Shown: in pieces, positions 3,514 through 26,615 of the stretch
Layout of the letters: each line of letters begins with the position of its first letter
Position numbering within the stretch: the stretch's first letter is position 1
Source of the DNA: an uncultured Verrucomicrobiota bacterium
GTDB lineage: Bacteria > Verrucomicrobiota > Verrucomicrobiia > Opitutales > Opitutaceae
Direction of reading: 5' to 3'
DNA: 36,109 nucleotides
Assembly (NCBI GenBank): GCA_903876795.1
Contig: CAIRBK010000054.1
Span: 1 to 36,109 of the forward strand
Made by a program: the position numbers and the translations under genes
The notes under the pieces: model-generated
Seen by the model: the letters and a program-made list of their open reading frames with translations, nothing else
Database searches by the model: none
What the model was told of the DNA's origin: nothing

Positions 3514-4082
3514 GCACCTACGCCGACCGCCAGGCCGAGCGCGACTCGGCTTACTCCACCGCCTACCGCGATTGGGTCGCCTCCCTACCTCCCGCCGAGC
3601 GCGCCCAGCTCGCGGCGGGGGGCTTCTCCGAGCCCGACGCCACCCGCCACACCTGCACCCGCCAGCACGACGACGCCACCCTCGACCGCACCGCCGCACC
3701 CGAGCCCACCCCCGACGACGTTGCCGAGTTGGCCGACGAACCCGCCCCCGTCTCGCCCTCCACTCCCGCCGACAACACCACCACCGCCGCCGATGTGCTC
3801 GCTTCGTTCTGTGCCCGCATTCGTTCCCACCCGAACCCGCTCCTTGCCTTCGACGCCGCCTGTTTCGCCTCCGGCCTGATGGACGTCGAAGGCCTCAGCG
3901 AGACCGCCCTCGCCAAGCGTCACCGCGTCACCCGCGCCGCCTTCTCCAAACTCGTCGTCGCATGGTCGGAGACCTTCGGCCTCCCGCCCTCGCGGGGGAT
4001 GCGTTCAAAACGCGCCCGCCACGCCTACCGCCAAGCCCGATTGACATCCCTCGCCCAACACCATGACCAAGCCCAAACCTAA
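3510..4082 (+). CDS. Phage-type protein with C-terminal helix-turn-helix
   Basis: 190 residues, with GAGGAGG upstream and the start overlapping the previous stop (ATGA). The N-terminal 100 residues are acidic and Pro/Thr-rich, probably disordered. The C-terminal part has a helix-turn-helix-like stretch (GLSETALAKRHRVTRAAFSK, about 129-148) followed by basic residues, so DNA binding is likely. I do not recognise a named family. It could be a small packaging-like or regulatory protein. The end overlaps the next gene by 20 bases. Confidence 0.55.
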   Translation: MSTYADRQAERDSAYSTAYRDWVASLPPAERAQLAAGGFSEPDATRHTCTRQHDDATLDRTAAPEPTPDDVAELADEPAPVSPSTPADNTTTAADVLASFCARIRSHPNPLLAFDAACFASGLMDVEGLSETALAKRHRVTRAAFSKLVVAWSETFGLPPSRGMRSKRARHAYRQARLTSLAQHHDQAQT

Positions 4083-4650
4083 GCTCGTCGCCCCCCTCGA
4101 AGTCCTCCCGCCCGACACCACCGCTCCCGACCCCCAGGGGGCTATGTTGAGCATCGACCTCTCCGCCTCGATCAACGCCGCCTTCGCCACCGCCCGCACC
4201 GCCGCCGATTCTGCCACCAACGAAGCCCGCGCCGCCATCACCGCCGCCGTGCAGTGCGGCGATCTCCTCACCCGCCAGAAAGCCAGCGTGCCCCACGGCA
4301 CTTGGCTCGATTGGCTCGCCGCCCATTGCCCCGACATCTCCGCCGAGACCGCGCGCCGCTACATGCGTCTCTCGAAACGGTCACAAGTGACCGATCTCAC
4401 CGACGCCACCTCCCTCCGCCAAGCCTACCTCGCCACGGGGGTTCTTCCCGAAGAACCCCCTCGCGACAACGGAACCCCCGACGCCAACGCCCCCGTCGTC
4501 ACCTTCACGCGGGGGCTTGATCAATTCCGCCGCTGGTTCCACCGCCGCACCGAGGACAAGCCCCTCGCCAAATGGACACCCGAAGCCCGCCGCCTCCTCC
4601 GCAACGAACTCGCCTGGTTCAAGAAGCTCCACGACGACCTCGCCGCCTGA
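4063..4650 (+). CDS. DUF3102-like phage protein
   Basis: 195 residues. The central part reads as a DUF3102-type domain: a helix ending in AAVQCGDLLTRQKASVPHG, then TWLDWLAAHCPDISAETARR, then YMRLSK (about residues 64-109). This family is found in phages and mobile elements and is thought to bind DNA, but its role is unknown. The gene contains the 16-bp palindrome at 4378-4393 in its coding sequence. It is the last gene before the 1.6-kb gene-free stretch. Confidence 0.6.
   Translation: MTKPKPKLVAPLEVLPPDTTAPDPQGAMLSIDLSASINAAFATARTAADSATNEARAAITAAVQCGDLLTRQKASVPHGTWLDWLAAHCPDISAETARRYMRLSKRSQVTDLTDATSLRQAYLATGVLPEEPPRDNGTPDANAPVVTFTRGLDQFRRWFHRRTEDKPLAKWTPEARRLLRNELAWFKKLHDDLAA
4378..4393. 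repeat. 16-bp palindrome, copy 1 (CGGTCACAAGTGACCG)
   Basis: CGGTCAC and GTGACCG surround a central AA inside the DUF3102-like gene. An almost identical palindrome with AT in the centre is the loop end of the capsid-gene terminator at 12239-12254. Two such long related palindromes 7.9 kb apart in one phage block suggest a recurring protein-binding site or a mobile short repeat. Confidence 0.6.
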
Positions 4651-6278
4651 CAACGCCCGCGCTCACTCCGTTCGCTTGGCGATCCCGCTCCCGCGCCTTC
4701 GCCACTCCCCCAACAACACGCCTCGCCGTCCTCCTCCGCCCGCTCCCGTTGGTCGCTACCCTCAACGCCTGCGGTCGCTCCGCTCCCTTGGCGAACGCGG
4801 CTAACGCGCTCCGTCGCCACGTTCTCGATAATTCGCCCGCAGACGGTGCCGCTCGGCCTCCCTCCATTCCGCTCCGCGCTACCGTTCCGCCTACGGTGCG
4901 CCGACTCCGCCCAGTCGGGGGCCGCAACGCCCTTCGCCCCTGCCGGCACGGATCTCGCCGAGCCGAGAACCGTGCCGTCTCGCTTCGCGAACGGGGCTGC
5001 GGTCGTCGCGGCTGATCCCCGACCCGGCGTCGCCGTCGCCCCTTCGGCTCCACGTCCGCACTCCGCTCCATTCCGGTCGCCCGACCGTCACCGACTGCTC
5101 GACTGTCCGGCTCACAACGCCCAAGGCCCCGAACCAATTCCAGCGCGGCGAGACGCCGTCACTCGGTTCCGCGCCCGCCAAGGCGGGTGCTCACCGAGCG
5201 CCGCCGACTCGCCGGGCCAACACGCAATCCGGCCGCCGCGCGCGCCCGTCGCGCTCAACGCGCGCCGGAAGCTCGCTCTGCCCGGCCTCAAACGCCGGTC
5301 GGCTTGATGCTCGCCGCGTTCAACGCGGCTCGAACGACGAGTGCGGTTCGTTCGCAAAGTTCACTCACGACCCAACGACCACGCGCGCCCGTAATGCGGA
5401 AAGCCCTCCGCTCGCCACCGGGCACGTCGCCCGCCCGCGTCGCTGGCAATCCGGGTTGGCCTTCGTCACGGCGAGGCGCTGGCACTGCGACGGCGTTCCT
5501 TCGTTCACGTCCGACGTCGTGTCCCGCGTCCATCGTCCGAGTCTTGTCGGCCAACCCTCCTCGTCCCGCGCCACCGTCAGGCGACCTGCTTTCCCCTGCG
5601 CGCACTACTTACCTTATGCCCAATATGCCCTCCTTCGGAGCGAGTCCGGCACCCTGTCAGGGCACCCGCCCGGAGGCATTTTTGACATAAGGTGGAGTAG
5701 TGCGCTCGGGCCGGCAGCGAGCTTCGGGCGTCACCAGTCCGCGCGCGCGATCCAATTCCACTGCGGCTTCGCCGCGCCTCAACGAAGATTCTAGCGGCGC
5801 TTCGCGCAATGAATAGGTTCCCCCGCGCCCGCCCTGGCCGTCCGTATTCGGTGCCTTGTCCCCGATGCTACCTCGCTCACAAGCCATCGTCTGTTCTGCC
5901 GTCGCCACGCGCCCCCATCGTTCTCTCGCTTCGCTCGTTCACTGGGGAGCTTCCCCCCGCCACCCAAGCAGGGCGGTGGCCCCGCCCGTCCCGCCCGGCC
6001 TAGCTTCGCTGGCCGGCGGCGGGCTTGCGCGCCTCTGGCGCGCTGCTTCGCCCTGGCACCCGCGCGCTCCGCGCAGACCCAGCGGGCGCCGGGCTCCGCC
6101 TCCGTCGGGCCGGGCGCGCCGAGCCGCGCGTCGGCCCTCCTGAGCCTCGGCGGCGGCAAGGATGCCGCCCTCTCGTTGCGGCGGGCTAACGCCCGTCGCT
6201 GCAAACCGAACCGTTCACGCGCGTTTTAAGTCATCGCCAAATCCGCCCCCGCGCGTGCGTTGACACCCCGCAACGGCG
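4651..6278. other. 1.6-kb gene-free, hairpin-dense region between replication and packaging genes
   Basis: I find no convincing gene here: possible ORFs are Arg/Pro/Ala-rich and have no family signature. Strong local inverted repeats are seen one after another: 4881-4897, 4901-4918 (CCGACT/AGTCGG), 4944-4977 (CGGCACGG/CCGTGCCG with an inner TCTCG/CGAGA stem), 5074-5087 (CGGTCG/CGACCG), 5162-5197 (CTCGGT/ACCGAG around CCCGCC/GGCGGG), 5313-5327 (CCGCG/CGCGG) and 5600-5705. Many more short GC stems lie between 5930 and 6210. This could be a large structured RNA, a DNA structure used in replication or packaging, or an accumulation of short palindromic repeats. Confidence 0.6.
5600..5705. repeat. 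Nested 106-nt inverted-repeat structure
   Basis: The outer arms at 5600-5618 and 5686-5705 pair over 18 bp (10 bp GCGCACTACT, a small bulge, then 8 bp ACCTTATG). Inside, ATGCCCTCC at 5625-5633 pairs with GGAGGCAT at 5672-5679 with one bulged C. Two small hairpins fill the centre: CGGA/TCCG at 5636-5648 and CCCTG/CAGGG around 5652-5662. The layout predicts a three-way-junction fold. It may be a structured RNA domain or a small non-autonomous mobile repeat. I see no target-site duplication. Confidence 0.65.
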
Positions 6279-6806
6279 ATGCCCATCGCCGTCCCGAAAG
6301 CCGACAAGGTCGGGCGCAGCTCCAAGTTCAGCCGCGCCCTGTTCGACCGCGTCCTCGCGGCGATCCGTGACGGCGCGCCGTCCCTGAACGCCATCGAGAC
6401 GCAGGGCATCGACCAATCCACGTTCTACCGGCACTTGCAGCGCCAACCAGACCTCGTGCCGTTGCTCCAAGCCGCCCAGCTCGAACGCGACCGCGTGCGG
6501 AACGCGTCTCGCATCGAGGAGGCCGAGCAGGAGTTGAAGCGGCGCGGCATCGACGGCTGGACGGAGCCCGTTTTCGACGCGAAAGGACAGATGTGCGGCG
6601 AGCGCCGCCGCTACTCCGACGCCTGTCTGATTTTCTTCCTCAAGGCCCACAAGCCCGAGCTTTACCGCGACCAGCCCACCACCGTCGTCGCCACTCAGGT
6701 CAACATCACGCCCGAGAAGGAGAAGGACATCATGCGCGAATGGCGCTCCCGCCTCGGTGCGACGGAAGCCCCGGCACCGGCCACGACCACGCCGCCCGCG
6801 CCATGA
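6279..6806 (+). CDS. Phage terminase small subunit
   Basis: 175 residues. The N-terminal half has a helix-turn-helix-like region (SLNAIETQGIDQSTFYRHLQ, about residues 35-54) that would recognise the packaging site. A long charged helical part follows (ASRIEEAEQELKRRGIDGW), then a segment typical of small terminases, LIFFLKAHKPELYRD (about 118-132), needed for oligomer and large-subunit contact. The start is a plain ATG without a strong Shine-Dalgarno. The stop overlaps the large-subunit start (ATGA at 6803). It binds DNA and hands it to the packaging motor. Confidence 0.8.
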   Translation: MPIAVPKADKVGRSSKFSRALFDRVLAAIRDGAPSLNAIETQGIDQSTFYRHLQRQPDLVPLLQAAQLERDRVRNASRIEEAEQELKRRGIDGWTEPVFDAKGQMCGERRRYSDACLIFFLKAHKPELYRDQPTTVVATQVNITPEKEKDIMREWRSRLGATEAPAPATTTPPAP

Positions 6807-8200
6807 GTGCCGCCCGCAAGAAATTCGCCACGCCCGAGCGTCGTCTAGCGGTCACTCCGCTCGACCTGCTTTTGCCCTACCAACGCGCGTGGGTGCAGGA
6901 CGCCGCGCGCTTCAAAATCTGGCTCAAGTCTCGTCAGATCGGCGGATCGCTTGCCGCGTCCTTCGAGGTCGTCGCCGACGCCATCGAGACCGGCGGCGAC
7001 TGGGTAATCTTGAGCGCAGGCGAACGGCAGGCGCTGGAGTTCATGGACAAGGTGAATCGTGCCGCGTCGATCTTTTGCGATGCCGTCAGCTACTCGTCCG
7101 GTCGCGAATACCGGCCCGAAATCCAGAAGTCCCAACTCCGGTTTCCCAACGGTGCGCGCGTCCTTGCGCTCCCCGCCAATCCGTCCACGGCACGCGGCTA
7201 TTCCGCCAACCTCGTCCTCGACGAATTCGCTTTCCATGAGAACCCCGAGGAGATTTGGCGCGCGGTTTATCCGATCATTTCCAACCCACTGCGGGGCGCG
7301 CTGAAACTCCGCGTCATCTCCACGCCCGCCGGGCGGAACAACAAATACTTCGATCTCTGGGAGCACGCGCCCGCGTTCTCCCGCCACAAGACCAGCGTTT
7401 ACGATGCGGTCGCCCAAGGTCTTGCGCTCAACATCGACGAACTCCGCGCCAACCTCGCCGACCCGGATGGCTGGGCACAGGAGTTCGAGTGTCAGTTCAT
7501 GGAGCACTCGTCCCAGGTGTTCTCCGCCGAACTGGTCAAGGGCTGTGAAAGTGAAGACGCCACCCTAGATCCGCCGGGGGAGCTTTTCTCAACCATGCTC
7601 CGTCCGCGTCCGGCCTTGTTCGTCGGCATCGACGTTGGCCGCAAACGCGACCTCACCGTCGCCTGGACGCTTGAGCGAATCCACGGCGGCCAACTCGTCA
7701 CCCGCGAGGTGCTGGTTCTCGACCGCGTGCCGTTCCCGCAGCAAGAGGCCATCCTCGCCCCGCGCGTCATGGCCGCCGCCTTCACCGCCATCGACGCGAC
7801 CGGCATCGGCGGCCCGGTGAGTGAACACCTCGCCGCCGCCTTGGATGAAACCCGCTTTGAGGGCGTCACCTTCACCGGCGACCGCAAACGCGAGCTGTTC
7901 GAGCGGCTCAAGAAGACCATGCAGGCCCGCGCCGTCGCGCTGCCCGCCGCCGCCGTCATCCGTGACGACCTCGGCAGCATGCAACGCATCGTCAGCCCCG
8001 GCGGCACCATCCGCTACGCCGCCGCGCGCACCGCCGACGGTCACGCCGACCGTTCCACCGCGCTCGCCCTCTCGATCCACGCCGCCCAGCGCAACCCGTC
8101 CGCCGGGTGCGGAGCGTTCGCCGCCGAGCGTGTTCCCACCGGCCTAAACGTCCGCCATCGCCCCGCGCTCACCCGCTACCGCGGCGCGTGGGCGCGATGA
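6803..8200 (+). CDS. Terminase large subunit, Mu gp28-like
   Basis: 465 residues from ATG 6803, which overlaps the previous stop. A longer upstream frame is not used because it lies inside the small-subunit gene. ATPase: Walker A-like SRQIGGS at 43-49, Walker B LVLDE at 137-141, coupling motif STPAG at 173-177. Nuclease domain: GIDVGRKRD with the first metal-binding Asp at 277, and a further acidic site in AIDATGIGGP. The protein drives DNA into the prohead and cuts the concatemer. The order terminase, DUF935 portal, I protease, capsid is that of Mu-like head modules. Confidence 0.88.
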   Translation: MSAARKKFATPERRLAVTPLDLLLPYQRAWVQDAARFKIWLKSRQIGGSLAASFEVVADAIETGGDWVILSAGERQALEFMDKVNRAASIFCDAVSYSSGREYRPEIQKSQLRFPNGARVLALPANPSTARGYSANLVLDEFAFHENPEEIWRAVYPIISNPLRGALKLRVISTPAGRNNKYFDLWEHAPAFSRHKTSVYDAVAQGLALNIDELRANLADPDGWAQEFECQFMEHSSQVFSAELVKGCESEDATLDPPGELFSTMLRPRPALFVGIDVGRKRDLTVAWTLERIHGGQLVTREVLVLDRVPFPQQEAILAPRVMAAAFTAIDATGIGGPVSEHLAAALDETRFEGVTFTGDRKRELFERLKKTMQARAVALPAAAVIRDDLGSMQRIVSPGGTIRYAAARTADGHADRSTALALSIHAAQRNPSAGCGAFAAERVPTGLNVRHRPALTRYRGAWAR

Positions 8201-12796: not shown

Positions 12797-15700
12797 TTAT
12801 CCGATTAATGCCTTAAACTCCGCGCGCGTCAGGTTTACTCCATCGGCCAAGACTAGCTCTTTCGGGAAACACGGTGCGCCCATCGACCACAGCTCCAAAC
12901 TATCGGCGTGATCATCGAAATACTCCGCCCGGGTCGTTACTCGCACTAGACTCGTTTGCCCGGGCGCGAGGTAGCTGAACTCTCCGACCCCCAGAGGCTT
13001 TGCGGTGATTCCGCCGGGCAATAGATCAGCCCGCGCCGCGATTTTTTCCAAATCATCCAAGGTGAGCGTGGGTTCGGGCTGCGGGGGTTCTTCGAGATCG
13101 GCATCGACGAAGCCGTCGAGATCGAAGCCAGCCGACTCCGCCAACGCTGCCGCCTGCTCTAGGTCGCCGACGACTCCGGCCCGCGCATCCTTGTTGGCGC
13201 CCTTACCCGCCAACACCGTTTGCGCGATCACACCCGGCAGCTTTGCGAGGATCGGCTGAAGGCGACCGACCACGCTGGTGAACAGGTTGATGCGTTTGCG
13301 CAGCGCGAGGTAAACATCCGCCTCGACCGTGTCCTGGTAGTGCAGGTTCACGATGCGGATGATCGGGTGTTTCTGGCCGAGACGGTCAATGCGGCCGATA
13401 CGTTGCTCCACCCGCATCGGATTCCACGGCATATCGTAGTTCACCAGCGAGCCACAGAATTGAAAATTGATACCCTCCGCCGCCGCATCGGTGCAGAGCA
13501 GCACGTCGGCTTTTCCCTCGCGGAAATGGCGCTTGGCGACTTCGCGCGAAACCGCCCGCCAGGTGCCGTCCTTCTCACGGATTTCACCACCACGCCCCGA
13601 GAAACACATGACGCGCAAATCCGGCTCATCGGCCAGGCGCACACGGAGAAAATCCATCGTATCGGTGTATTGGGTGAACACCATCGCCTGCGCAAAACCC
13701 GCCGCCCGCAGCGCGCGCAGTTCTTTCGCGAGCGTTTCGGCCTTCGAGTCCGGAGGCAGCTTGCGGATGTCGGCCAACAGATCCGCGATGGTGTCGCGTT
13801 CCTCTTGGGCCATCGCCTCCCGGTCGAGTTGTTCGGCTTCGTCCGCCGAGACTTGTTCGCCTCCGAGTTCCAGCTCTTGTTGCTCCGTGTCTTCCGCCCA
13901 TTGGCCGGGTGCCCCCGTCGGCGCGCCACGCATGGACGCGAGCCGGTTTTCCAAAGTGCCTGCGAGTGCGGCGAAGCTACTGGCGAGACGCCGCCGATAG
14001 ATCGTCATGATGAAACCCACCGCATTCTTCTCTTTCGCTGCCGCACGATTATAGACGTCGGCAATGTAGATTTCTACTCGCTTGTAGATTGAGTCCTCGG
14101 CGGGCGAAAGTGGGATGAAGCGGTCTTCCACATCACGCGTCGCAATCGGCGTCGAGAGCTTGCCCGCCGCATGGTAGCGAGGCAGCAGTTCGCGCGTGTG
14201 CCGCGAGATCAATCGACCGACCGGCGACCACGCGCGGATGATCTTAAGCGCGATTGCCCGATGATGGGTTTCCAACTGCCGCCGCAGAATCGTCGAGGGA
14301 TCGCGCAGCGCCTTGAGGATTTTTCGCGCCGCCAGTCCGCTCGTTACTCCCAGCCGCTTCACCTCGTCTTCGGTGATCGCTCCAAAGGCCCGCTCCGATG
14401 CTTGGAAAAGCTGCGTCAGCGATTCCAGCGTGTCTTGCGAAGGAGCGGCTTCCTCTACGGCCTCGGTGAAGCGCAGGAAAGCGCCCTCCGTCCACTCCGC
14501 CGGCATCCGAAGCAACGAGAGCAGATCCCACACCTCCACCGGATGCACCTGCATCGGCGTCGCCGTGAGCAGCACCAGCCCTTGCGTGCGTTGTTCCAAC
14601 CCGCGCAACAGTCGTAGGAGCGAGTTGGGGCGGTTCTCGTTGGTCGCCCCCGGAGCTTTACGGCGCGCGTGATGGGCCTCGTCCACGATCACGAGATCCC
14701 ACGGCTGCGCTTGTTCCAGTAGCTCGGGCTGACGCTCCGAACGGCGCATCAGATGGCTCGATGCGATGACAACCGGCTCTTTGTGCCAGTCGGCCCGGCT
14801 CACCTCGCGCTCGTCCCCCGCCGGTCGTGCCGGGGTCGGCATCCACGAGAGTTTTTCGCCGTCATAAAGCGGCCAGTTGAGGTTAAATTTTTCCCGCAGT
14901 TCCACCTGCCACTGTCGGCACACGTTGGCCGGCGCTAGGATGAGGATGCGTTTCGCCTTCTCCGCCAACCACGCTTGCCGAAGGAGCAAGCCCGCTTGAA
15001 TCGTCTTACCTAAACCAACCTCGTCGGCGATCAACAGGCGCGGGGGCCATTGCTGATAAAGTCGCTTAAACGCCCGCACTTGATGCGGCCACGGCGTCAC
15101 GTTGGCGGTGGCCTCGCCTACGCGCTCGCCGCCGTAGGGCAGCTTGGCCGCGTGGCGAATGTAACTCCACACCGCTCGGCGGTTATCCACCAGTTCCGGT
15201 TCGGGTGCGAGCGGCACCGGCTCGACGTCGGGCAGCAGGTTGATCGGCGTCGCCGGGGGCCAACCCTCACGCGAGGCCTTGAGGCGCGCAGGCTCATCGT
15301 TCGAGGGCAGGAAGCGCAGTAAATCCGCGCGTGCGGCTTCGGGCACGTCAAGCGTGACCACATGCGGCGACTCGCCATCCCAGAGGCGGCGAAAGTTGAT
15401 GTCTTCCTCCTCCACACGTTCGAGGGCGTCCTCGTTTCGCCACGAGCAAAAGATATTCAGGCTTTCCCAGTTCTTCGTCCAACCGGCCGCCGTCTCATTG
15501 AGGCTGCCGTTAAAGGCCAGACGGTCTCCGGTCTTGTCTTCGACGATGCCTGATTTTTCGTGAAACAGCCCCTCGGCTGGCACCGGACGCCGCCGCTCAT
15601 CGCAGGGCACGGCCACCTTCACTTCGAGGATTTGCTGAGCCACCATCCACGCGAGCAGTTCGAGGGCTTCGACTTCGCGCTGATTGCCTGGCTTGAGCGG

Positions 15701-15991
15701 ATAGCGCAGCAGGTGGGATTTTACTTGGTCGCGAATCTCCGCGCCGTGGGTGATCGCATCGACCTCGGCTTTTTCGAGTGTGCAGCCGACGAGCAGGCGC
15801 ACCCGCCCGCTGTTTCGCACGAGGCCTTCGATGCCGCGCGCCGCCAGCGACAAGGCACGGGCGTTAAAATACCCCGTCAGCCGGTCATATCGCACCGCGC
15901 ATTCCAGCGCCGGGACGTAAAGCAGATCCACCAGATCGCCGTGATCGGGCGTGTATTTCAGCTTCCACTTTCGGTCGCGCAGAAGGCTCAT
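12797..15991 (-). CDS. Phospholipase-D nuclease / SNF2-type helicase fusion
   Basis: 1064 residues. The N-terminal 200 residues form a PLD-type nuclease-like domain with FHEKSG (H144, K146) and NGSLNE (G162, S163, N165), i.e. one HKD half-site. The helicase follows: motif I DEVGLGKT at 323-330, motif II DEAH at 437-440, LLTATPMQ (III), MVFTQYTDTMDFL, and CTDAAAEGINFQ through EQRIGRIDRLGQ (V-VI). It probably translocates on DNA and may cut it. The ATG overlaps the KAP gene stop, making it the last gene of the operon. PLD-SNF2 proteins paired with DUF1156 methylases are typical of defence islands. Confidence 0.88.
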   Translation of the reverse strand: MSLLRDRKWKLKYTPDHGDLVDLLYVPALECAVRYDRLTGYFNARALSLAARGIEGLVRNSGRVRLLVGCTLEKAEVDAITHGAEIRDQVKSHLLRYPLKPGNQREVEALELLAWMVAQQILEVKVAVPCDERRRPVPAEGLFHEKSGIVEDKTGDRLAFNGSLNETAAGWTKNWESLNIFCSWRNEDALERVEEEDINFRRLWDGESPHVVTLDVPEAARADLLRFLPSNDEPARLKASREGWPPATPINLLPDVEPVPLAPEPELVDNRRAVWSYIRHAAKLPYGGERVGEATANVTPWPHQVRAFKRLYQQWPPRLLIADEVGLGKTIQAGLLLRQAWLAEKAKRILILAPANVCRQWQVELREKFNLNWPLYDGEKLSWMPTPARPAGDEREVSRADWHKEPVVIASSHLMRRSERQPELLEQAQPWDLVIVDEAHHARRKAPGATNENRPNSLLRLLRGLEQRTQGLVLLTATPMQVHPVEVWDLLSLLRMPAEWTEGAFLRFTEAVEEAAPSQDTLESLTQLFQASERAFGAITEDEVKRLGVTSGLAARKILKALRDPSTILRRQLETHHRAIALKIIRAWSPVGRLISRHTRELLPRYHAAGKLSTPIATRDVEDRFIPLSPAEDSIYKRVEIYIADVYNRAAAKEKNAVGFIMTIYRRRLASSFAALAGTLENRLASMRGAPTGAPGQWAEDTEQQELELGGEQVSADEAEQLDREAMAQEERDTIADLLADIRKLPPDSKAETLAKELRALRAAGFAQAMVFTQYTDTMDFLRVRLADEPDLRVMCFSGRGGEIREKDGTWRAVSREVAKRHFREGKADVLLCTDAAAEGINFQFCGSLVNYDMPWNPMRVEQRIGRIDRLGQKHPIIRIVNLHYQDTVEADVYLALRKRINLFTSVVGRLQPILAKLPGVIAQTVLAGKGANKDARAGVVGDLEQAAALAESAGFDLDGFVDADLEEPPQPEPTLTLDDLEKIAARADLLPGGITAKPLGVGEFSYLAPGQTSLVRVTTRAEYFDDHADSLELWSMGAPCFPKELVLADGVNLTRAEFKALIG

Positions 15992-18279
15992 ATGCGATGT
16001 ATGTCGGGCGTTTCGATTATATTGCCTGCATCATTTACCGTCACAGCAACGACCTCCTTATCGGCAAGGCTCTCTGGACTCGATGCAGCAACGCCGAGCA
16101 GCTTCCCGACAACAACTTTTTCGACCTCGGTTGTCGCGCCTTCGCTCGCCGCTTTCGCCAAAGGCGGCAGATCGACCAGTTTGAGCAGACTGCCAACCGG
16201 GATTTTAAACGTATGCAAACCGCCGGAAACGGTTTCGCTTAGCATTCCCATAAGCAGGGCGCATGCAACTTTGCCGTCTTCGATCGCGTCCGCGATCCAT
16301 GCCTTCAATTGCGCCCCATCGCCGTTCCGCTGATAAAAGCCTAAGGCGGCACGGATGAAGGGAGTCTTCCAAATTGATTTGGCTTCAAATGCTTGTCTCA
16401 AGCGTTCCATCAATACGGCGATTGCCCTTTCGTTTACGGAACGCGGCGTGGCACCCATTTGATCGCCATGACTACGGTTATCCGCATCAAAACAGCACAC
16501 AAGAAGAAGCGGCCCGTTGATGGCGTTCGTGTCCGTAACTGCGGATAGATACGCGGTGCATCGTTGGTCGCCGTTGTCGATTCCGAGTATCAAGTCCTTG
16601 GCTAGAAAGATAAAGTTTCTCAGCCCATCCGACTTAAATTCACCTTCAGATACGAGGCCCTCTGGCAACTCGTCCGAGAGATCCATGATTGCGCCAACAA
16701 CGAGCTGAATTTGCGCCAGTGTGAAGTTTGGCCGGTGAGCCCTGCACCGCGACATTAGGTCGTGATAAAATCCACTCACCAGCGCCTCGCGAAACGCCGC
16801 CACACATTCACCTCGCGACGTAGCCCGCAAGAATTTCGCCATGAACGCCGCTGGCACCTGATCGCTCTCATACTGAAGATCGAAGTAACGATGGAAGTGC
16901 TGGTAAGAGCACACGCGCAAATCCCGCGACCACTCGCCGTCGCCATGACTGCCATGCCGCCCTTTTATCTGCGGAAAGAGTCCATTCAGCAGCTCGGTAA
17001 GTCTGCGTTTCTGACGTTCCGTTAATTCGCGCTTCTCAATCAAATTATCCACCGAGAGCGCGAACTCGTTTTTGCTCTCCTTATCGTCATACAAGAGCTC
17101 GAGAAGGATGTTTCGATCCCTTCGGAAAACATCCTGTATTTCCTGATAAGCACCGGGGTCGAAAATCCGGAGTGTCTCGACCAACACTAAGTCGGTCTCG
17201 TTCACCTCCAAGTGGCCATCACGGATATGGCCGTCAAAGGTGAAATCGAACACACTCAGAAAGCGTTTAATATCGCGCGGGGTTGTGAAGAACGGGCACA
17301 CCGCGTCATCGAATAGCTGTTCCCAACGGTCTCGCCGCGTAGTGTTCCACTCGTAGATCGCCCGGCTCCAGGTTTTCCGAATCCCCTCCTTGAGGAGCTT
17401 TTGTATCTGGTGCTGCGGCGGGGTTGGAACATCCAGCTCGACTTGCACGATCTTTCTTAGAAATGCCGCGCCTTTATCCCCGGTCATTTCATCCAGAGCC
17501 TTCGCGACCACGTCGCGTTGGTAGAGGAGTAAATACACGACATTGGGCAGATCGGCGTTGGCCTTTATCAACTGCATCAGCATCTGCACCTGGCTGCGGG
17601 AAAGCCGGTCGATATCGTCGATCACAATCACAAGCGGTGTTGCTTGCGTAGTGAGAGTTGCCGCGATGTCTCCCCGCACTTCTTCGAGGCTCTTACCCTC
17701 CTGATTTTCGTGCGCGTCGGCGGCGTTGTTCGCCAGCTCCTCAACGGCTGCGGCACCTTCTTCGACCGCCGCGCCAACCACTGCGGTAATTGCCACGGTG
17801 CCGCCAACGACCGGATTGGCCAAGGTCGCTGGCACAGTGAGACCGGCCGCGCCCGTTTTTCCCCACTTCGCAAGATTCTTGGTTACCCCAAAAAAGCGTC
17901 CGAGCCCACGCCAAGCCGTTGCTAAACCCTTGGCTCGTTCGCCTGGATTCTCGCGATCTAAGCTCGCAGCGATCTCCCCGAAAAACGCATCGAAGAGCAT
18001 CTGCTGGCCTTCCCATTGCCAGGGGTTAAAATGGGCGATCATTGGGGCCGCCTTGTCCGGGGGCGTATCTGCGCGAAGATAGTGGAGGATGAAATGCGCG
18101 AGAGTGGTTTTCCCGCTGCCCCAATCCCCGCTCAAGCTGACGACCAGGCTATCCCCGGTCTTTCGCCACGTCCCGATGTCACGGGCGATTCGTTTGGCGA
18201 AATCACTTCGCCCGAACAAATCGTCACCCGGTGACTTCAATGCCTTGTCGGCATTGTATCGGTGCGGCGCGTCGCTCAT
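15988..18279 (-). CDS. KAP-family P-loop NTPase
   Basis: 763 residues from ATG 18279, which overlaps the methylase stop as ATGA. A longer frame reaching to 19119 is only an antisense shadow of the methylase gene. Walker A GDWGSGKT lies at 51-58, the KAP-typical FNPWQW at 84-89, and Walker B IVIDDIDRL at 218-226. Between them a hydrophobic stretch (about 144-180) may enter the membrane, as in many KAP proteins. The C-terminal 450 residues are helical with no domain I know. KAP NTPases are often membrane-linked and occur in several anti-phage systems. The base composition looks lower in GC than neighbouring genes. Confidence 0.85.
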   Translation of the reverse strand: MSDAPHRYNADKALKSPGDDLFGRSDFAKRIARDIGTWRKTGDSLVVSLSGDWGSGKTTLAHFILHYLRADTPPDKAAPMIAHFNPWQWEGQQMLFDAFFGEIAASLDRENPGERAKGLATAWRGLGRFFGVTKNLAKWGKTGAAGLTVPATLANPVVGGTVAITAVVGAAVEEGAAAVEELANNAADAHENQEGKSLEEVRGDIAATLTTQATPLVIVIDDIDRLSRSQVQMLMQLIKANADLPNVVYLLLYQRDVVAKALDEMTGDKGAAFLRKIVQVELDVPTPPQHQIQKLLKEGIRKTWSRAIYEWNTTRRDRWEQLFDDAVCPFFTTPRDIKRFLSVFDFTFDGHIRDGHLEVNETDLVLVETLRIFDPGAYQEIQDVFRRDRNILLELLYDDKESKNEFALSVDNLIEKRELTERQKRRLTELLNGLFPQIKGRHGSHGDGEWSRDLRVCSYQHFHRYFDLQYESDQVPAAFMAKFLRATSRGECVAAFREALVSGFYHDLMSRCRAHRPNFTLAQIQLVVGAIMDLSDELPEGLVSEGEFKSDGLRNFIFLAKDLILGIDNGDQRCTAYLSAVTDTNAINGPLLLVCCFDADNRSHGDQMGATPRSVNERAIAVLMERLRQAFEAKSIWKTPFIRAALGFYQRNGDGAQLKAWIADAIEDGKVACALLMGMLSETVSGGLHTFKIPVGSLLKLVDLPPLAKAASEGATTEVEKVVVGKLLGVAASSPESLADKEVVAVTVNDAGNIIETPDIHRI

Positions 18280-21269
18280 GCACCTTCCTTGGCCTGTTCG
18301 GCGTTCCAGAGTTCGAGCTGTTTCGGGGCCTCCACGCGTTCGGAGAATGCGAGGCGGCGGAGTTTTTCCAAGGCCTCGAAATCGCTCGCGGCTCCCTCGC
18401 AGGCGTCGAGCACGTCGGGGGCACCGAAGGCGCGGCTCACCGGCAGCACTTCGAGCACCGCCAACAGCGCGGCAGCGAAGCCGGGGTCTTGGACGACTCC
18501 CGCCTTTTCGAGCAGCTCGCGGCCGGCGTCGAGCGTGCGGGTGCGGGCTTGGTGCGCGGCGTGGTGCAGGGCGTCGATCATGCCTTGCGAACCATCGGGC
18601 GCGCCGAGGGCGTGTTTGGCCGCGCGTTGCGTGCTGTCCCAGAGAATGAGGTCGCTGCCCTTCTTCTCGGCGAGGTGGCCCACGATGTCGGCATCGAGGT
18701 CCACGCCGACGGCGCGGGCGAGGCGGAGCGCTTCGTCGTAGGGGAAGACCGGGGCTTGAAACGCATCCCACGCCAGCACGAACCACGCAGTGCGGCCATC
18801 GAGTTCGGCCTGGGCTTTTTTGTGGGTGAGCTGTTCGAGTCGCCAGCTCTTCACCTCGCGGCGGGCGGCATTGAGCGCGTCCTCCGGCGTGACTTCGTAG
18901 GGGTCGCGTTCTTCCGGGAATAGTTCTTTTTGCGCCCGGCGTTTGGCCTTGGGTTCGGGCTTGGGCGTGCCGCGCTTGAGCGGCCAGTGGCGGGAAAACT
19001 CCTCCAGCGCTGGGCCGAAGCAGGCGAGATACAAATCCACGCCCCGGATGCCGCCCGCTTGGAACTCGGCCACACGCTTGCGCACGGCGGCGGCGACCAG
19101 CGGCTCCACGTCTTCCCAATAGCGCGTCTCGGCGTTGGCGTCCACGGCGGCGCGGGGGCGGCAGGCGAGGAAGATCGTCGAGTTGGCGGCGGCCTTGTCT
19201 TTGATGTGCAGGCTACCCTCGGCCTCGGTATTGATCGGCCAGGAGGCGGTGATGACGAAGCCAGCCTGCATGAGACCCTGGGTGAGCGCATCCCACGCGC
19301 CGGTGGCCTTGTGGGTAAACATCAGCGTCATGATGCCCTCGGGCTTCAACACCCGGCGGCACTCCTCAAAAATGCGGGCCATGCGCTCCTGATAATCACG
19401 CCCGGCGAGGGCCTTTGCGCCCTTCTGGTCGCGGAACTTGGCTGGGTTGGCGACGGCCTCGTTTTCCTTGTCGGTGAGCTGGCGGCGGAAGAGTTCGGGG
19501 AAAACGAGCCCGGCGGTGCGCTTGAGCCAGACGTAGAAAAAGTCGCTCAGCTCCGCATACATCACGTTGTCGTAATACGGCGGATCCATCACCACGACAT
19601 CCACCGAGCCATCGGCGAGGTGATCGAGCGCATCGCCCGATTTATTCGTGACGGTGATCGGCGGCGGCGTCCACGGTGCCGCCGGAGCCAGCGGAAGTTC
19701 GGTTTCCAACGACAAACCGAGTTCAGCTTGAGGCTTGGTGACCGGGGCCCCGATGCGGGCGGATGCGGGCTGAATCAGCTCAACCAGCTCCGTCATGCAT
19801 TTGGCCGTCTGCTCGATAGCCCAGTCGTAATCCACACCTTTTACCAGTGGCGACATCTCAGCGTAAGACCATTTGAACGCAAAATCATGACGATCAAATG
19901 TGTTAACCATTACCTCACGATTACTATGCCAGCGCGTCATTCGTGAGTTATAGTCGCGAAGCTTGTCTAGCGCGGAACAGAGATAGCAAAGCGCAGCGCG
20001 ATAAACATCAGCCGACCCTGTGGTCGGAATTGGATCTAGAAGTAACTCACGAATCGTTTCCCCGCTTGTGCCATGAACAAGAACCTGGCGCGGAGAGAAA
20101 ATATCGAGCCATTTTAACATGCCGTATCTGCGCGGTTCGTCGGTTTTATGCCCGACAGGAATTTCCTCATTAGGAACAACGTCCATTGCCTCCCATTCTG
20201 GCATTTTTTCGCTTAAAAAATCCGAGATTTCCTTGGCGTTGTTGTCTGAGCAAACCGGAGCGCGATAACCTCGCACCCACTTCACACGTTCCTTGCCGGT
20301 TTTCGTTAAGACAATGGTGCGACGCTTGAAAACAACGGCGTAGAGTTGCTCCCCCATCAGCCCTGCCTGTGCCTGCTTCTTGATCTCATCCCCTTCGACT
20401 ACACGGCCGCAGTCAGTAAAGGGGCACGAGGCATCTCCATCTGCGATAGTGCCGCCGGAGTGGTCGTCGAGCTGCTGAACAATTTCAAACTCGCACACAC
20501 GTTCCGACACCACCTTCGAGCAGTTAGGCTTCAAGCGAACGCCCGTGCCATCGGGAGCGAGACGCCAATTGGGCGAAAGCGGCACCACGCCTTCACAATA
20601 CGGACACCGCACCGTGCGCGCCCAAATGAAATTTGTTGGAATACAGTCCTTCTCCGGTTCCGCCGGGAAGAACTTTTTCAACCGCTCTTCGCGGCGTTTC
20701 ACAAACTCCGCCGCCAAGCGATTAAACTCGTAAACCACGGCCATGCCATACTTCGCCGGCCATTCGTAAGTGGCTTTTTGGATAAACGCAGCAACCGGGT
20801 TTAGGTCGTTGCCGACCGTGGCAAGGCCGAGGCGGAGCGCTTCCAACGGAACGGAGCCGCCACCGCCTGTTGGGTCGAGCGCGTTGAGTGAACTCGGATC
20901 AACGCCTATCTGTTCACGGAACCACGCCTTCTCCGTTTCCGTCGGAGTGTATTTAAAGGCCCGCTCGTAGGAGTAGGCATCGCCCTCAAACCGCACGCCG
21001 GTGCGCTTGGCTTGGTCAATCTTGCGGCGACTTGCCACCGGGTCGCCATGCACGCCCAGCGCACGCATGAACTTCTTATGGTCGGCGTCGGCAGGAAGGA
21101 GCGAAGCGAGGATCGCCGCCCGCGAAGCGACGAGGGGACGCCGTGCCCACCAGACGTGGAGCCGATTGGGCGCGGGAAACGGCGTCATCGGCGTGCGCTC
21201 GCGCAAGCTCTCGATACCAATCTCCGTGATCGGCAACCAACGTTCAATCAGGCGGGGGGAGGAAGACAT
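18276..21269 (-). CDS. DUF1156 adenine-specific DNA methylase with zinc ribbon
   Basis: 997 residues. The N-terminal DUF1156 motif RLIERWLPITEIGIES is followed by NRLHVWWARRPL. SAM-binding motif: DPTGGGGS at 132-139. Zinc ribbon: C222/C225 (RCPYCEG) and C282/C287 (SCPFTDCG). Catalytic motif IV: DPPYYD at 562-567, the N6-adenine/N4-cytosine type. The C-terminal 300 residues are helical and charged. It should mark host DNA as self. The start lies six bases after the protease stop. The middle third looks poorer in GC than both ends, which could reflect exchange of the target-recognition part. Confidence 0.88.
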   Translation of the reverse strand: MSSSPRLIERWLPITEIGIESLRERTPMTPFPAPNRLHVWWARRPLVASRAAILASLLPADADHKKFMRALGVHGDPVASRRKIDQAKRTGVRFEGDAYSYERAFKYTPTETEKAWFREQIGVDPSSLNALDPTGGGGSVPLEALRLGLATVGNDLNPVAAFIQKATYEWPAKYGMAVVYEFNRLAAEFVKRREERLKKFFPAEPEKDCIPTNFIWARTVRCPYCEGVVPLSPNWRLAPDGTGVRLKPNCSKVVSERVCEFEIVQQLDDHSGGTIADGDASCPFTDCGRVVEGDEIKKQAQAGLMGEQLYAVVFKRRTIVLTKTGKERVKWVRGYRAPVCSDNNAKEISDFLSEKMPEWEAMDVVPNEEIPVGHKTDEPRRYGMLKWLDIFSPRQVLVHGTSGETIRELLLDPIPTTGSADVYRAALCYLCSALDKLRDYNSRMTRWHSNREVMVNTFDRHDFAFKWSYAEMSPLVKGVDYDWAIEQTAKCMTELVELIQPASARIGAPVTKPQAELGLSLETELPLAPAAPWTPPPITVTNKSGDALDHLADGSVDVVVMDPPYYDNVMYAELSDFFYVWLKRTAGLVFPELFRRQLTDKENEAVANPAKFRDQKGAKALAGRDYQERMARIFEECRRVLKPEGIMTLMFTHKATGAWDALTQGLMQAGFVITASWPINTEAEGSLHIKDKAAANSTIFLACRPRAAVDANAETRYWEDVEPLVAAAVRKRVAEFQAGGIRGVDLYLACFGPALEEFSRHWPLKRGTPKPEPKAKRRAQKELFPEERDPYEVTPEDALNAARREVKSWRLEQLTHKKAQAELDGRTAWFVLAWDAFQAPVFPYDEALRLARAVGVDLDADIVGHLAEKKGSDLILWDSTQRAAKHALGAPDGSQGMIDALHHAAHQARTRTLDAGRELLEKAGVVQDPGFAAALLAVLEVLPVSRAFGAPDVLDACEGAASDFEALEKLRRLAFSERVEAPKQLELWNAEQAKEGA

Positions 21270-21275
21270 GCGGAA

Positions 21276-22121
21276 TTAAAGAGTTGAGGACAGGGCAACC
21301 GGTTCACGTTGGACAACGCGAACGTCGGGCGTCTCAGGGATGAACGGTGAAAGCTCGGGGAAGCGCCTGCGAATACCTTCGAGCGCGGCAGTAATGCGGA
21401 CAGCTAGGAACGATTGCGGGTGCTCGGGCGGCAATTCCATGCACAGACCGACCAACTCCACCGGCACGTCTTGGCCGAGTTCGCGTCTGCGAACGCCCTT
21501 GAACACCCCGCCTCCGCTCAGGCCGTTGAGAATCGGGGCCAGCGGGCGATCTTGATGCACGTTACCCGTTTCATCGCGCATGGGCGCACCATCCATGACG
21601 ATGCCGACGTGGGAATACGGCATCACGCCGACCCGATGATAATCAGCCTCAGCATAGGAGCGTGCCGTGATTTTCTGAATCTGTGGGCGCAGCATCCCTT
21701 TCCCGCGCGGTTCGGCATCACGCAGCGGGTAGCCCATGAAGGTGTAGTGCGTGTCGTGCGAAGCCTCCACGCCAAGCGCCACGGCCTCGACCGGCCAGAA
21801 GGCGAATTGAGCACGAAACCCGGCGGCGGTGGCATCGTCGAGCCGGAGAAACGTCACGTCCACCCGGTCGCGTTCACGGCCACCGGTGGCGGGCATCCGG
21901 CTGACGCTACCCGTGCCCGCGAAGGGCTGAAGGTCACCATTCAGCACCGACAACAACGATGTCCGCCCCGTCGTCGGATCGTCGAGATGATCGAGCACGT
22001 GGGCACAGGTGAGGAGAAAATGCGCCGGCCCCACCGCCAGCAAAACCCCCGACCCAATCGGCACCGGCCACGACTTGTCGTCGAGTCGGTAGAGCGGGCA
22101 GATGGAGGAGGAGGGAGACAT
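21276..22121 (-). CDS. Trypsin-like serine protease
   Basis: 281 residues. The chymotrypsin-fold triad can be placed: H41 in LLTCAHVLD, D88 in RVDVTFLRL and S202 in LNGLSGGGVF. The spacing and the GxSGG-type serine motif are as in active enzymes. No signal peptide is visible, so it should act in the cytoplasm. The gene lies 9 bases after the NYN gene and 6 bases before the methylase gene, so it is an integral part of the operon. By analogy to other defence proteases it may cut a partner or a cellular target once infection is sensed. That is inference. Confidence 0.82.
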   Translation of the reverse strand: MSPSSSICPLYRLDDKSWPVPIGSGVLLAVGPAHFLLTCAHVLDHLDDPTTGRTSLLSVLNGDLQPFAGTGSVSRMPATGGRERDRVDVTFLRLDDATAAGFRAQFAFWPVEAVALGVEASHDTHYTFMGYPLRDAEPRGKGMLRPQIQKITARSYAEADYHRVGVMPYSHVGIVMDGAPMRDETGNVHQDRPLAPILNGLSGGGVFKGVRRRELGQDVPVELVGLCMELPPEHPQSFLAVRITAALEGIRRRFPELSPFIPETPDVRVVQREPVALSSTL

Positions 22122-22130
22122 GCGGTCGGT

Positions 22131-22775
22131 TTACCACGAAGCGGGTTTATGAAACGCGCCCTGCGCATCAGTCAGGGTCGGCGCGAATTGCGACGCGACC
22201 AAGTGCGCCCAAGTGATGCCGTTTTGGTAAAACGACACGGCGTGTTGTAGGCCGGCGCTCTTTCGTGGCGGCCGACAGTTCGGGCCGGAAATACGCTGGG
22301 GATTCAGCACGCCGATAGGCTTCTTGATCTCGTCGCGCACCATACGAATCGGCGTCACCAAGTCGGAATCACCGGAGATCACGATGGCGCAATCGTAGCG
22401 GCCTCGAAACCCGTCGAGAAGCAGGTGGGAGGCGAGGTTTACGTCGGAGCCTTTCTCCTCGGTCTTGAAAACCTCAATAGTGTTGGGCGGCGGCGTCACC
22501 ACGGCGGCGCGGACTTTGCGGGTGCGAAAATCTCCCTCGATGATTTCCAGGTCGGGCAGAGTCTTGAGCGCCCGCCAATACATCGCTTGCCGGACGGGCT
22601 GATCGAGGTTGCCCGGCAGAGGCGAAACGCGGGCGGTAAAATACTTGGTGGCGACGATCTGGTTGCGCGGGAAGGTTCGTGCAATCAACGCCAGCGGATT
22701 TACCCAGCGCAACGGAGTGCTTTTGACCGCGCTGTAATAAAAATTGAAGCCGTCGATGTAGAGAATGGTCTTCAT
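22131..22775 (-). CDS. NYN-domain (PIN-like) nuclease
   Basis: 214 residues, with GGAGG about 10 bases before ATG 22775. The acidic triad of the NYN/LabA family is visible: D8 in LYIDGFN, D111 in EKGSDVNLA, and D136/D138 in VISGDSDL. The hallmark SGDSDLVTPIRMVRD segment is complete. NYN proteins are metal-dependent RNases or DNases. It heads the tightly packed second half of the operon, directly behind a terminator-like hairpin. It is probably an effector or RNA-processing part of the system. Confidence 0.83.
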   Translation of the reverse strand: MKTILYIDGFNFYYSAVKSTPLRWVNPLALIARTFPRNQIVATKYFTARVSPLPGNLDQPVRQAMYWRALKTLPDLEIIEGDFRTRKVRAAVVTPPPNTIEVFKTEEKGSDVNLASHLLLDGFRGRYDCAIVISGDSDLVTPIRMVRDEIKKPIGVLNPQRISGPNCRPPRKSAGLQHAVSFYQNGITWAHLVASQFAPTLTDAQGAFHKPASW

Positions 22776-22805
22776 CGCGCCGACCTCCGCTCGATCTCTC
22801 CAAGG

Positions 22806-22843
22806 CTAAAAAATGCAAGGGCGACCCCCGAAGAGGTCGCCCC
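22806..22843 (-). terminator. Terminator-like hairpin inside the defence operon
   Basis: On the minus strand GGGCGACC (22842-22835) pairs with GGTCGCCC (22826-22819), and TTGCATTTTTT follows at 22818-22808. It stands in the 177-base gap between the small unknown gene and the NYN gene, only about 30 bases before the NYN start. That is too close for a full promoter after it. It probably attenuates transcription of the downstream genes. Confidence 0.65.
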
Positions 22844-22952
22844 GCGTCCTGCCGTCGAAACGGACAAGAGAGATGTGGGGCAAACAAAATGAATGGGGGA
22901 GGCGGTCGTCAACCTGTAAAGACGGGTAAAAGCCAAGATAAGATGCATGTCC

Positions 22953-23483
22953 TTAAGCATGAGTCGGTTTCTTTTTGGGTTTCGGCTCCGTAAAGAGCAG
23001 ACGCAGGGCGGCACCAACGCGGCGATAGCGCGCACGGTGCAGCGTCATGCCCAGCCAGTAAGACGACTCTTCTCGCCCCATCTGCTCGATGCCTTCGACG
23101 ACAGCGCGCAGGTTGTCGCGGCTGCTCATCGGGGCGAGCACGCGGAAGAGAAGCGCGAGGGTGAGCGCGTGGTCTTCGGGCAGTGCCCAGCCATCGCGAT
23201 GCCCCGGCAAGGGGCGCGTGCCCACGATGCGTTCGGCAGGCAGGCCGGCGGCCTTGAGTCGACGGGCGACGCGACTCTCGATAAACTCCAGATTTCGCCC
23301 GCGCAGACCAGCGATGCGGGTCGCAGTGCGCAGGTGGGGCGTGGCGGGCGACGGTAGTTGCCACACTTCCAGCTCGGGGTCACCCGGGCCGTGGAAGGCG
23401 GCGCGCACTTCGTAGCGAGGCAGAGCAAGCGAGGGGTCAACGGGTTCGCGGCGGCGGGGCGGCAGGGGTTTTTTCGGAGGCAT
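22953..23483 (-). CDS. Small protein of unknown function in defence operon
   Basis: 176 residues. The basic Pro-rich start (MPPKKPLPPRRREP) is followed by a strand-rich part and a helical core (RNLEFIESRVARRLKAAGL; ALTLALLFRVLAPMSSRDNL; GIEQMGREESSYWLGMTLHR). It resembles the short proteins that accompany DUF499/DUF1156 systems (DUF3780- or DUF7680-like), but I cannot decide which from sequence alone. The start lies 24 bases after the ATPase gene. Confidence 0.6.
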   Translation of the reverse strand: MPPKKPLPPRRREPVDPSLALPRYEVRAAFHGPGDPELEVWQLPSPATPHLRTATRIAGLRGRNLEFIESRVARRLKAAGLPAERIVGTRPLPGHRDGWALPEDHALTLALLFRVLAPMSSRDNLRAVVEGIEQMGREESSYWLGMTLHRARYRRVGAALRLLFTEPKPKKKPTHA

Positions 23484-23507
23484 CGCGGAGGCTGTTGGGG
23501 TTGAGGC

Positions 23508-26500: not shown

Positions 26501-26615
26501 CGTGCGCCACGCCGCGAATTACTTTGGCAAGATCGGCGGCGAAATCGGCTTCGGCGATGGTGCCGTTGAGAACGTCGGCGCGAGGGGTGCAGGAGTAGAA
26601 AATGGTGGTCGTCAT
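23508..26615 (-). CDS. DUF499 AAA-type ATPase
   Basis: 1035 residues. The N-terminal domain holds Walker A YGGGKT at 85-90 (within FRLDTSYGGGKTHSLIAL) and Walker B LILLDEL at 192-198, the pattern of DUF499/COG1483 ATPases. A long helical middle follows. A Gly/Ser/Pro/Ala-rich linker is encoded at about 23950-24130, and a C-terminal globular part of about 130 residues ends at the stop. This family is repeatedly linked with DUF1156 methylases and SNF2 helicases in defence islands and probably powers or senses the complex. Confidence 0.87.
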   Translation of the reverse strand: MTTTIFYSCTPRADVLNGTIAEADFAADLAKVIRGVAHEDYQVPARFFANTYPTAGLKNLLRQVMGRLTGKGESSAAIFRLDTSYGGGKTHSLIALTHVAAGMPGVKNSGEFLESKLIPSGKVRIAAFDGENADPANGRAMGEGVLAFTPWGEIAYALAGKVGYERLRKSDESHTAPGAETIAELFGQEPSLILLDELSIYLRKVANIPGARDQLSAFLTSLFKAVESNPHVALVYTLAIGKDGKAGDAYSGENQFISDRMAEAESISARKATLLNPTEDDETVQVILRRLFERIDTAAAGPVIEAYRAAWQQHKDSIPAESNHPETLKAFQASYPLHPELLETLTTKTATLANFQRVRGMLRLLARTVQQLWATKPDDATAIHVHHVDLGMSAIRDEIFTKLGRSEFKPAVSHDIAGGTGTPPLAQQIDTKAYKGLAPYCTYVARTIFLHTLAFNEQLKGITAERLRFSALSPTLDLGFVEDARKQFQSLSAYLDDRPGVPLRFLAEANLTQIVRREEEHVDKATAREELRDRIRTIFAGSVTGAIFELVPFPAGPWDVADDAGDGRPRLVLLSHEALTVGATVEAVPDLIARIFDRRGSDGSSLRILRNHLVFLTADETRLEEMRRAMMRRLALRELIKPGRIQELAEHQQAKVRELETKSDLEVAMVIQQAYRHVFYPSSQRLAGSPVDLNHAAIDIHSASERPGTGQQQVIRALRDNANQKLRLAEDAPESPGYIRDRTPLKKGQISTAALRDEFRKDPALSIHSSDNVLIRAINQGINQGDYVYRSGDLLCGPGDPLPSVKIDENSFVFTIQFAKEKGMWPRPAPAAATPVGAGASVAPGASPVGAGTGSGSSGQPLSVGGGASALTGGGASGVAEPTPPPPGAVTAEGPLKQALGELWEKCRKAKLTEIKVLSLRLFDATDAFKMLGSLNAEKNCKKTVTLSGAYETASGGEMELTFRGSPDDALPVKDFLVPQLNAAAAAKKERNVDATFELIFDPLLSLAGDAPEKLAERLGKFASGAAYVAATAQG

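Follow-up and report, generated by a model that had tools for sequence, protein, structure and literature searches.

The window, i.e. the whole stretch of DNA analysed here, is 36,109 nucleotides in length and represents one contig of a 3.57-Mb genome from an uncultured Verrucomicrobiota bacterium of the Opitutaceae. Within its first 12 kb, the plus strand encodes a helicase, a primase, a RusA-like resolvase, an unknown gene and a DUF3102 gene ahead of a gap, which is followed on the same strand by terS, terL, a Mu-type portal, a protease, a scaffold-like gene and the major capsid gene. The gap (4651-6278) is exactly the interval between the stop of the DUF3102 gene and the start of terS and is thus placed between replication genes and packaging genes, with terminase, portal and capsid genes as neighbours typical of a phage or prophage setting. 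No tRNA genes were found in the window, and neither a sigma-70-type promoter nor an intrinsic terminator pattern was detected in 4400-6600 on either strand. A conserved core, hereafter the element, occupies the gap except for flanks at approximately 4651-4744 and 6257-6278 (Table 1).

Table 1. Features of the gap and its adjoining genes, in window coordinates; alignments A4 (far group) and A5 (near group) are described in the text.
Feature	Position	Strand	Basis and remarks
DUF3102 gene	4063-4650	+	Pfam PF11300, E=1e-6; replication side, its end marks the start of the gap
Partial second copy of the element's 3'-terminal motif, in the variable flank	4650-4696	-	Nucleotide-profile match
Conserved core, proposed structured noncoding RNA	4745-6256	-	RNA 5' toward 6256, 3' toward 4745; ends approximate; A5, covariation
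Arm of ~260 bases with nested helices, including hairpin 4972-5005	4867-5126	-	A5 helices 21-23
Long hairpin, ~20 bp plus 7-bp upper stem	5174-5242	-	A5 helices 18 and 19
Domain of ~310 bases closed by long-range helix 5725-5714 / 5424-5413	5413-5725	-	Contains TTATG hairpin 5708-5603
Best supported hairpin domain, UUAUG/CAUAA stem within a longer covarying stem	5603-5708	-	A4 counts; match of the far-only model
Hairpin near the RNA 5' part	6053-6097	-	A5 helix 4: double-sided change in 4 of 7 pairs
terS-proximal block with motif AAAACGCGCGT (minus strand)	6217-6256	unassigned	Alike in near and far alignments
terS, terminase small subunit	6279-6806	+	phrog_4044, E=1.9e-20; just past the RNA 5' side
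terL, terminase large subunit	6803-8200	+	Terminase_6N (Pfam), E=1.2e-19, matched on the longer ORF 6593-8200; start set at ATG 6803

Distribution and position of the element

Relatives were gathered mostly by a terminase anchor from IMG/VR, named genome contigs and further genomes; two loci counted as distinct if the first 200 bases of their TerL matches differed, and a TerL match had to span at least 100 residues to be included. Among 35 distinct loci with a TerL at least 54% identical and at least 1.5 kb of upstream DNA, profile searches (above 40 bits) identified the element in 31, the remaining four being L045, in which the TerL match is truncated, L254, L202 and L247. The element was present in none of 64 loci having a less similar TerL and enough upstream DNA, as judged by profiles that were built from this TerL clade and would miss very divergent copies, and a GC-rich block before the terminase was absent in 11 of 16 loci examined in which TerL is 44-54% identical. 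Nine further loci with a TerL at least 54% identical have shorter upstream DNA, and seven of these contain the element, which is absent in L037 (1280 bases upstream) and L097. The closest terminase relatives with named records come from IMCC26134, Opitutaceae, Opitutae, Puniceicoccaceae and uncultured Verrucomicrobia, all of them Verrucomicrobiota, as well as one record titled Akkermansia muciniphila (L041). The L041 terminase is 90% identical to that of the window, and the genome matching this record (G238) is classified in the same family as the window, which suggests that the title may be wrong. The element is kept by related mobile elements of Verrucomicrobiota and was seen only in Verrucomicrobiota genomes and in viral contigs with related terminases.

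The position of the element is steady as well. It lies no more than 273 bases before terS and in the same orientation in 40 of the 42 loci holding both, these 42 being part of a list of 49 loci compiled once the profile searches had been run. The stretch matched in L161 is found 2.95 kb from terS and is inverted, while the element of L200 is split, most of it being located 2.7 kb from terS with other ORFs between; both arrangements favour a unit working on its own. The terS-proximal block of L200 remains beside terS, and L037, which lacks the remaining element, retains a match of 36-38 bases close to terS, from which we consider that the block at 6217-6256 is perhaps a separate promoter or leader element. 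For G002a, terS was not found within 13.9 kb on that side of the element. An additional ~0.8-1.1 kb of DNA separates DUF3102 from the element, on the RNA 3' side, in L010, L012, L013 (G002) and L023.

The sequences fall into two groups, termed near (22 sequences in alignment A5) and far (16 sequences assembled), the latter consisting of marine-type viral contigs together with Opitutae or Puniceicoccaceae genomes. Many far pairs are 65-88% identical over stretches of up to ~1.3 kb (97% for L094 versus L095), whereas the near and far groups have only short collinear blocks in common. Many far elements are also richer in GC than their surroundings, most strikingly that of L162 (65-68% versus 39-52% for its contig). 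Inside the element of a marine relative (L094:4208-4368), we observed a tandem repeat of an ~85-base unit in 1.9 copies; part of the RNA may therefore grow by unit duplication. Within the order, far DNA was matched in 9 of 372 genomes, some by short pieces only. A phylum-level scan with the far hairpin model, which missed even the window's own genome and says little about near-type elements or about rarity outside the clade, matched 1 of 387 genomes (G063, E=2e-4 for one genome), and this match was set aside as chance given its unrelated surroundings. Phage records yielded no DNA match to the window element or to a far element, and plasmid records yielded none to the window element.

Across seven loci, the identity of the element correlates with that of TerL at r 0.36, TerS at 0.58, DUF3102 at 0.59, the portal at 0.78 and the primase at 0.96. 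Element identity tracks TerL no better than other genes, and co-inheritance with the terminase genes found no support. Element pieces without a terminase gene nearby were found in G000:C85, G013 and G311. The first of these is a lone 65-base piece, 89% identical, located elsewhere in the window's genome (G000:C85:26495-26559, equivalent to L018:2496-2560).

Coding capacity, compensatory changes and strand

A preliminary description had reported the gap to be free of credible genes, and the comparison with relatives confirmed that no tested frame behaves as a conserved protein. Stops are present in all six frames of all 18 long near sequences, including the window, and only 46 of 387 indel runs in pairwise comparisons of the element are multiples of three. 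In five stretches of the element, substitutions were spread nearly evenly over codon positions; for the longest of these, 4730-5690, which was read in the same frame as the longest run without stops (4832-5791 on the plus strand), the counts were 830/717/782, versus 317/180/1007 for terS. On these three observations, a protein-coding reading was rejected.

The same description had drawn attention to strong successive stems. Those it named at 4944-4977, 5162-5197 and 5600-5705 overlap the consensus-fold helices 4972-5005, 5174-5242 and 5603-5708, whereas hairpin density alone is mostly within chance. As a single-sequence statistic, hairpins are mostly unremarkable for DNA of ~70% GC, and z-scores of 250-base segments scatter about zero. 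Among six such segments of 4750-6249, 5500-5749 alone is clearly below shuffles (z -3.5 plus, -2.3 minus). The coding segment 4250-4499 is about equally low (-3.1, -2.8), which makes single-sequence folding weak as evidence. Hence, it is the comparison with relatives, rather than stem density, for which we count the observation as real.

That comparison, which had been proposed as a check, found the region conserved and compensatory changes present. For the far hairpin, which matches window 5603-5708, alignment A4 (13 sequences) has 93.9% of cells paired and exhibits double-sided change in 12 of 29 pairs (25 cells), a count reached by 0 of 500 shuffles and by no slid version of the structure, the latter yielding at most 6 pairs. 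Alignment A5, which contains the 22 near sequences and whose structure was derived from the same sequences that were used for its counts, exhibits double-sided change in 40 of 206 pairs (195 cells), again with 0 of 500 shuffles reaching this value and at most 10 pairs in slid versions; the count of further pair types in A5 was not above shuffles (363/500). Some of the A5 support comes from long-range pairing, as helix 12 (5725-5714 / 5424-5413) has double-sided change in 4 of 10 pairs with 92.5% of cells paired. For helices 18 and 19, the corresponding values are 8 of 27 pairs and 92-95%, and for helices 21-23, 9 of 46 pairs and 94-99%. The region of the latter (4867-5126) also exhibits a weak self match on the reverse strand.

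Shared descent was taken into account with a home-made tree-based null, in which substitutions are redistributed along the tree and the result is then refolded (16 simulations for the element). The far group has 68 double-change pairs versus a null mean of 37.8 and maximum of 48, and the near group has 78 versus a mean of 47.9 and maximum of 59. With the structure of A4 held fixed, 8 of 2000 simulations reached the double-change pair count and none reached the cell count. The terS-terL control, run with 12 simulations on both strands of 20 near and 12 far loci, yielded 20-32 pairs versus null means of 52-69 and is therefore below its null. Folding energy was unspecific in this test and was dropped as evidence, because terS-terL also scores z -2.8 to -11.8. 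In an unrestricted pair-by-pair test against the tree-based null, with no given structure and with few sequences from few lineages, no pair was found at E<0.05. The element thus combines conserved secondary structure, compensatory changes and the lack of a protein, as in a large structured noncoding RNA, with single pairs being insignificant unless a structure is given.

Further evidence for a shared hairpin came from a covariance model built from the 13 far hairpins alone, which matches the minus strand of the window at the homologous place, 5595-5710 (E=4.4e-4; E-values are rough). The search covered 57 loci, including 8 near loci, and among these 8 the model matched five on the RNA strand below 1e-3 and two at 0.012 and 0.091, with one unmatched. 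All counts for the hairpin were taken from the far-only A4, since in A3, the hairpin alignment that combines both groups, the near stems are one column out of register. Partial near sequences (L029, L035, L031, L036 and G008) were left out of the consensus folding and of the strand comparison in which G-U pairs are forbidden, G311 of the far set was left out of the latter as well, and the far alignments omit L161 and L162 because no anchor motif could be located in them.

Several of these comparisons also bear upon the strand. Read on the minus strand, mismatches in the far hairpin comprise 36 G-U versus 5 A-C cells, and 25 versus 1 in the main stem. When G-U pairs are forbidden during folding, the minus-strand exceptions are G-U over A-C by 72 versus 22 (far) and 110 versus 50 (near). 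The excess of G-U over A-C assigns the proposed RNA to the minus strand, where it is antisense with respect to the packaging genes. A DNA hairpin would favour neither type of mismatch, so the excess also favours RNA over a DNA structure, which the preliminary description had offered as the alternative and which we consequently disfavour. Consensus folding is better on the minus strand as well (-254 versus -202 for far, -874 versus -756 for near), an advantage that is partly one of composition because the minus strand is G-richer. Double changes on the plus strand likewise exceed their null (51 versus 27.0 and 67 versus 45.9), which means that the tree-based test does not choose the strand, and in the window the far-hairpin model prefers minus only slightly (26.5 versus 23.9 bits, plus E 2.2e-3).

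Known RNAs and competing explanations

The suggested comparison with Rfam returned no family above threshold. Nothing was found at gathering score in the whole window with Rfam 15; in 4500-6400, three chance-level rows appeared at E<=5 (Xoo2, Pseudomon-groES and Acido-1, E 1.2-3.4), and at E<=1 the relatives L128, L129 and L162 contained only a sub-threshold serC leader, located outside of the element. The GOLLD, ROOL and OLE models were not among the Rfam rows for the window and were not found in these three relatives. The phi29 pRNA, for which Rfam presumably includes a model, was absent from the rows for the window and for 4500-6400. As a phage-coded RNA tied to DNA packaging, the phi29 pRNA would be a comparable case if a packaging role is right for the element, although the pRNA is small and the element is ~1.5 kb.

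The preliminary description had also suggested an RNA of the GOLLD or ROOL sort. In kind, the predicted RNA is like both, but it is a member of neither, as their Rfam models are unmatched. According to PMC12286853, GOLLD is large, highly structured, of unknown function and borne by phages and prophages, just as is proposed here; it is often found near tRNA islands, whereas the window lacks tRNA genes, and many GOLLD RNAs exceed 800 bases, compared with the ~1.5 kb of the element. Unlike GOLLD, the element sits between replication and packaging genes, and it was seen only in genomes of Verrucomicrobiota and in viral contigs whose terminases are related. The same paper describes ROOL as a large ornate RNA of phages and prophages for which no protein partner has been identified. 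Relative to ROOL (env-120 is 659 nt; PMC12286853), the element is more than twice the length, has another gene neighbourhood and is unmatched in Rfam. Giant phage RNAs form few known families, and what GOLLD and ROOL do is described in PMC12286853 as poorly understood. In the open-licence literature, mostly at the level of titles and abstracts, no RNA of this sort was found described for phages of Verrucomicrobiota; PMC4642752 concerns a lytic Verrucomicrobia phage.

Based upon the conservation, the compensatory changes, the lack of coding and the unmatched Rfam search, the earlier suggestion of an unreported large RNA is supported, and neither of the two results that had been named as counting against it, a lack of conservation or covariation in relatives and a conserved protein in one of the frames, was obtained. 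In our estimation, there is a probability of roughly 70% that the gap encodes a separate gene for a structured noncoding RNA of ~1.4-1.5 kb, carried on the minus strand, where it diverges from the packaging operon and is antisense to it. The element most likely represents a new family of large structured RNA beside viral DNA packaging genes.

Several other explanations can be weighed against a separate RNA gene. The element could be a cis-acting regulatory RNA, i.e. a very long antisense or leader that controls expression of terS and the late operon, as would accord with its end lying so close to terS in nearly all loci holding both and with the persistence of the terS-proximal block where the rest has moved (L200) or is missing (L037). 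However, the structured strand is opposite to terS and the matched part of L161 is both distant and inverted. Furthermore, leaders need far less than 1.4 kb of structure, and we regard cis regulation as unlikely. The adjacency to terS, where pac sites are often found, and the location between replication and packaging genes would equally suit hairpins acting at the level of DNA, whether as a pac or cos packaging site, a replication origin or a recombination hot spot. Such hairpins do not predict an excess of G-U over A-C among the helix mismatches of one strand (36 versus 5), and both the size of ~1.5 kb and the ability of the matched part to be distant and inverted add to the difficulty, which leaves a DNA structure quite improbable.

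A neutral or decayed GC-rich sequence, such as a dead gene or repeats conserved only through recent descent, would account for the many indels tolerated in the element, for the pieces without a nearby terminase gene (G000:C85, G013 and G311) and for the repeat array of L094, but not for compensatory changes that exceed both shuffles and the tree-based null while the terminase genes fall below theirs, nor for a hairpin that is common to the near and far groups. Consequently, we consider decay very improbable. Lastly, since the large structured RNAs that are conserved in mobile elements frequently belong to the catalytic or retroelement type, a group I or II intron, a retron or a nuclease guide RNA could be envisaged in place of a GOLLD-like RNA. 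In this case, however, no such family is among the Rfam matches for the window, for 4500-6400 or for the three relatives, and the nameable neighbours in the window are replication, terminase and head genes, such that this explanation has hardly any probability in our view.

If the element is indeed a separate RNA gene, several suggestions can be made regarding its functionality. The RNA would be transcribed from a promoter near the terS start upon induction of the mobile element, would fold as a compact multidomain molecule and would act in trans, rather than as a terS leader. Its most likely role, which we propose only tentatively and by analogy, would be in packaging of DNA or assembly of heads, where it may act as a particle or scaffold similar to the oligomeric RNAs GOLLD and ROOL. 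This role is favoured because, within one terminase clade, the element adjoins the genes for terminase and head proteins and is unseen beside less similar terminases, whereas the correlations of element identity leave a special link to packaging unsupported. Should the proposal of a separate gene be correct, the element would constitute an RNA family larger than GOLLD and ROOL with a steady terminase neighbourhood.

The mobile elements that carry the proposed RNA

In the window, the left end of the carrier is cut by the contig, while defence genes extend from the capsid gene to 26.6 kb, the limit of the scan. This defence island lies on the minus strand at 12797-26615, directly after the capsid gene, and encodes a PLD/SNF2 helicase, a PifA-like KAP NTPase, a DUF1156 methylase (HmaB-like), a HEC-09-like protein and a DUF499 ATPase (HmaC-like). 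The complete genome of IMCC26134 contains two copies of the element, so that the contribution of such RNAs to a phage could be studied by deletion in a named strain. The island of copy 1 starts at a tRNA-Glu with an integrase and has the same replication, terminase and head genes, followed by an Ssp defence system (SspA, B, C, D, F, G and H). Repeats of the tRNA-Glu end are found ~37 kb away (25 bases) and ~61 kb away (32 bases, L278:10484), neither of which is a whole tRNA gene; the right end is ambiguous. From the tRNA-Glu to the 25-base repeat, the island spans L264:1804 to L277:7011. Among the ORFs scanned, which extend as far as the 25-base repeat and include all but four of 72-85 aa, none matched a tail family. 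In this one case, the carrier is likely a tail-less, capsid-bearing integrative island with defence cargo.

These features are reminiscent of capsid-forming PICIs and other tail-less satellites, since the IMCC26134 island has an integrase, replication, terminase and head genes, Ssp defence cargo, a repeat of the tRNA-Glu end and, among the ORFs scanned, no tail family. Unlike capsid-forming PICIs, it is found in another phylum and is composed of other gene families, including a Mu-type portal. To judge from its gene content, the island looks like a capsid-forming satellite in Verrucomicrobiota. If the carriers are satellites, the element would in addition represent a large RNA borne by a tail-less element. 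It is even conceivable, by analogy with GOLLD and ROOL, that a giant self-assembling RNA, larger than GOLLD and antisense to the packaging genes, forms a particle that helps to build or fill the head of a tail-borrowing satellite, a scenario that we regard as rather doubtful. Beside the capsid gene of copy 2 of IMCC26134 (L262:787-10060), we observed a different defence cargo, comprising an HmaB-like methylase, a PLD helicase and PDC-M04A/B.
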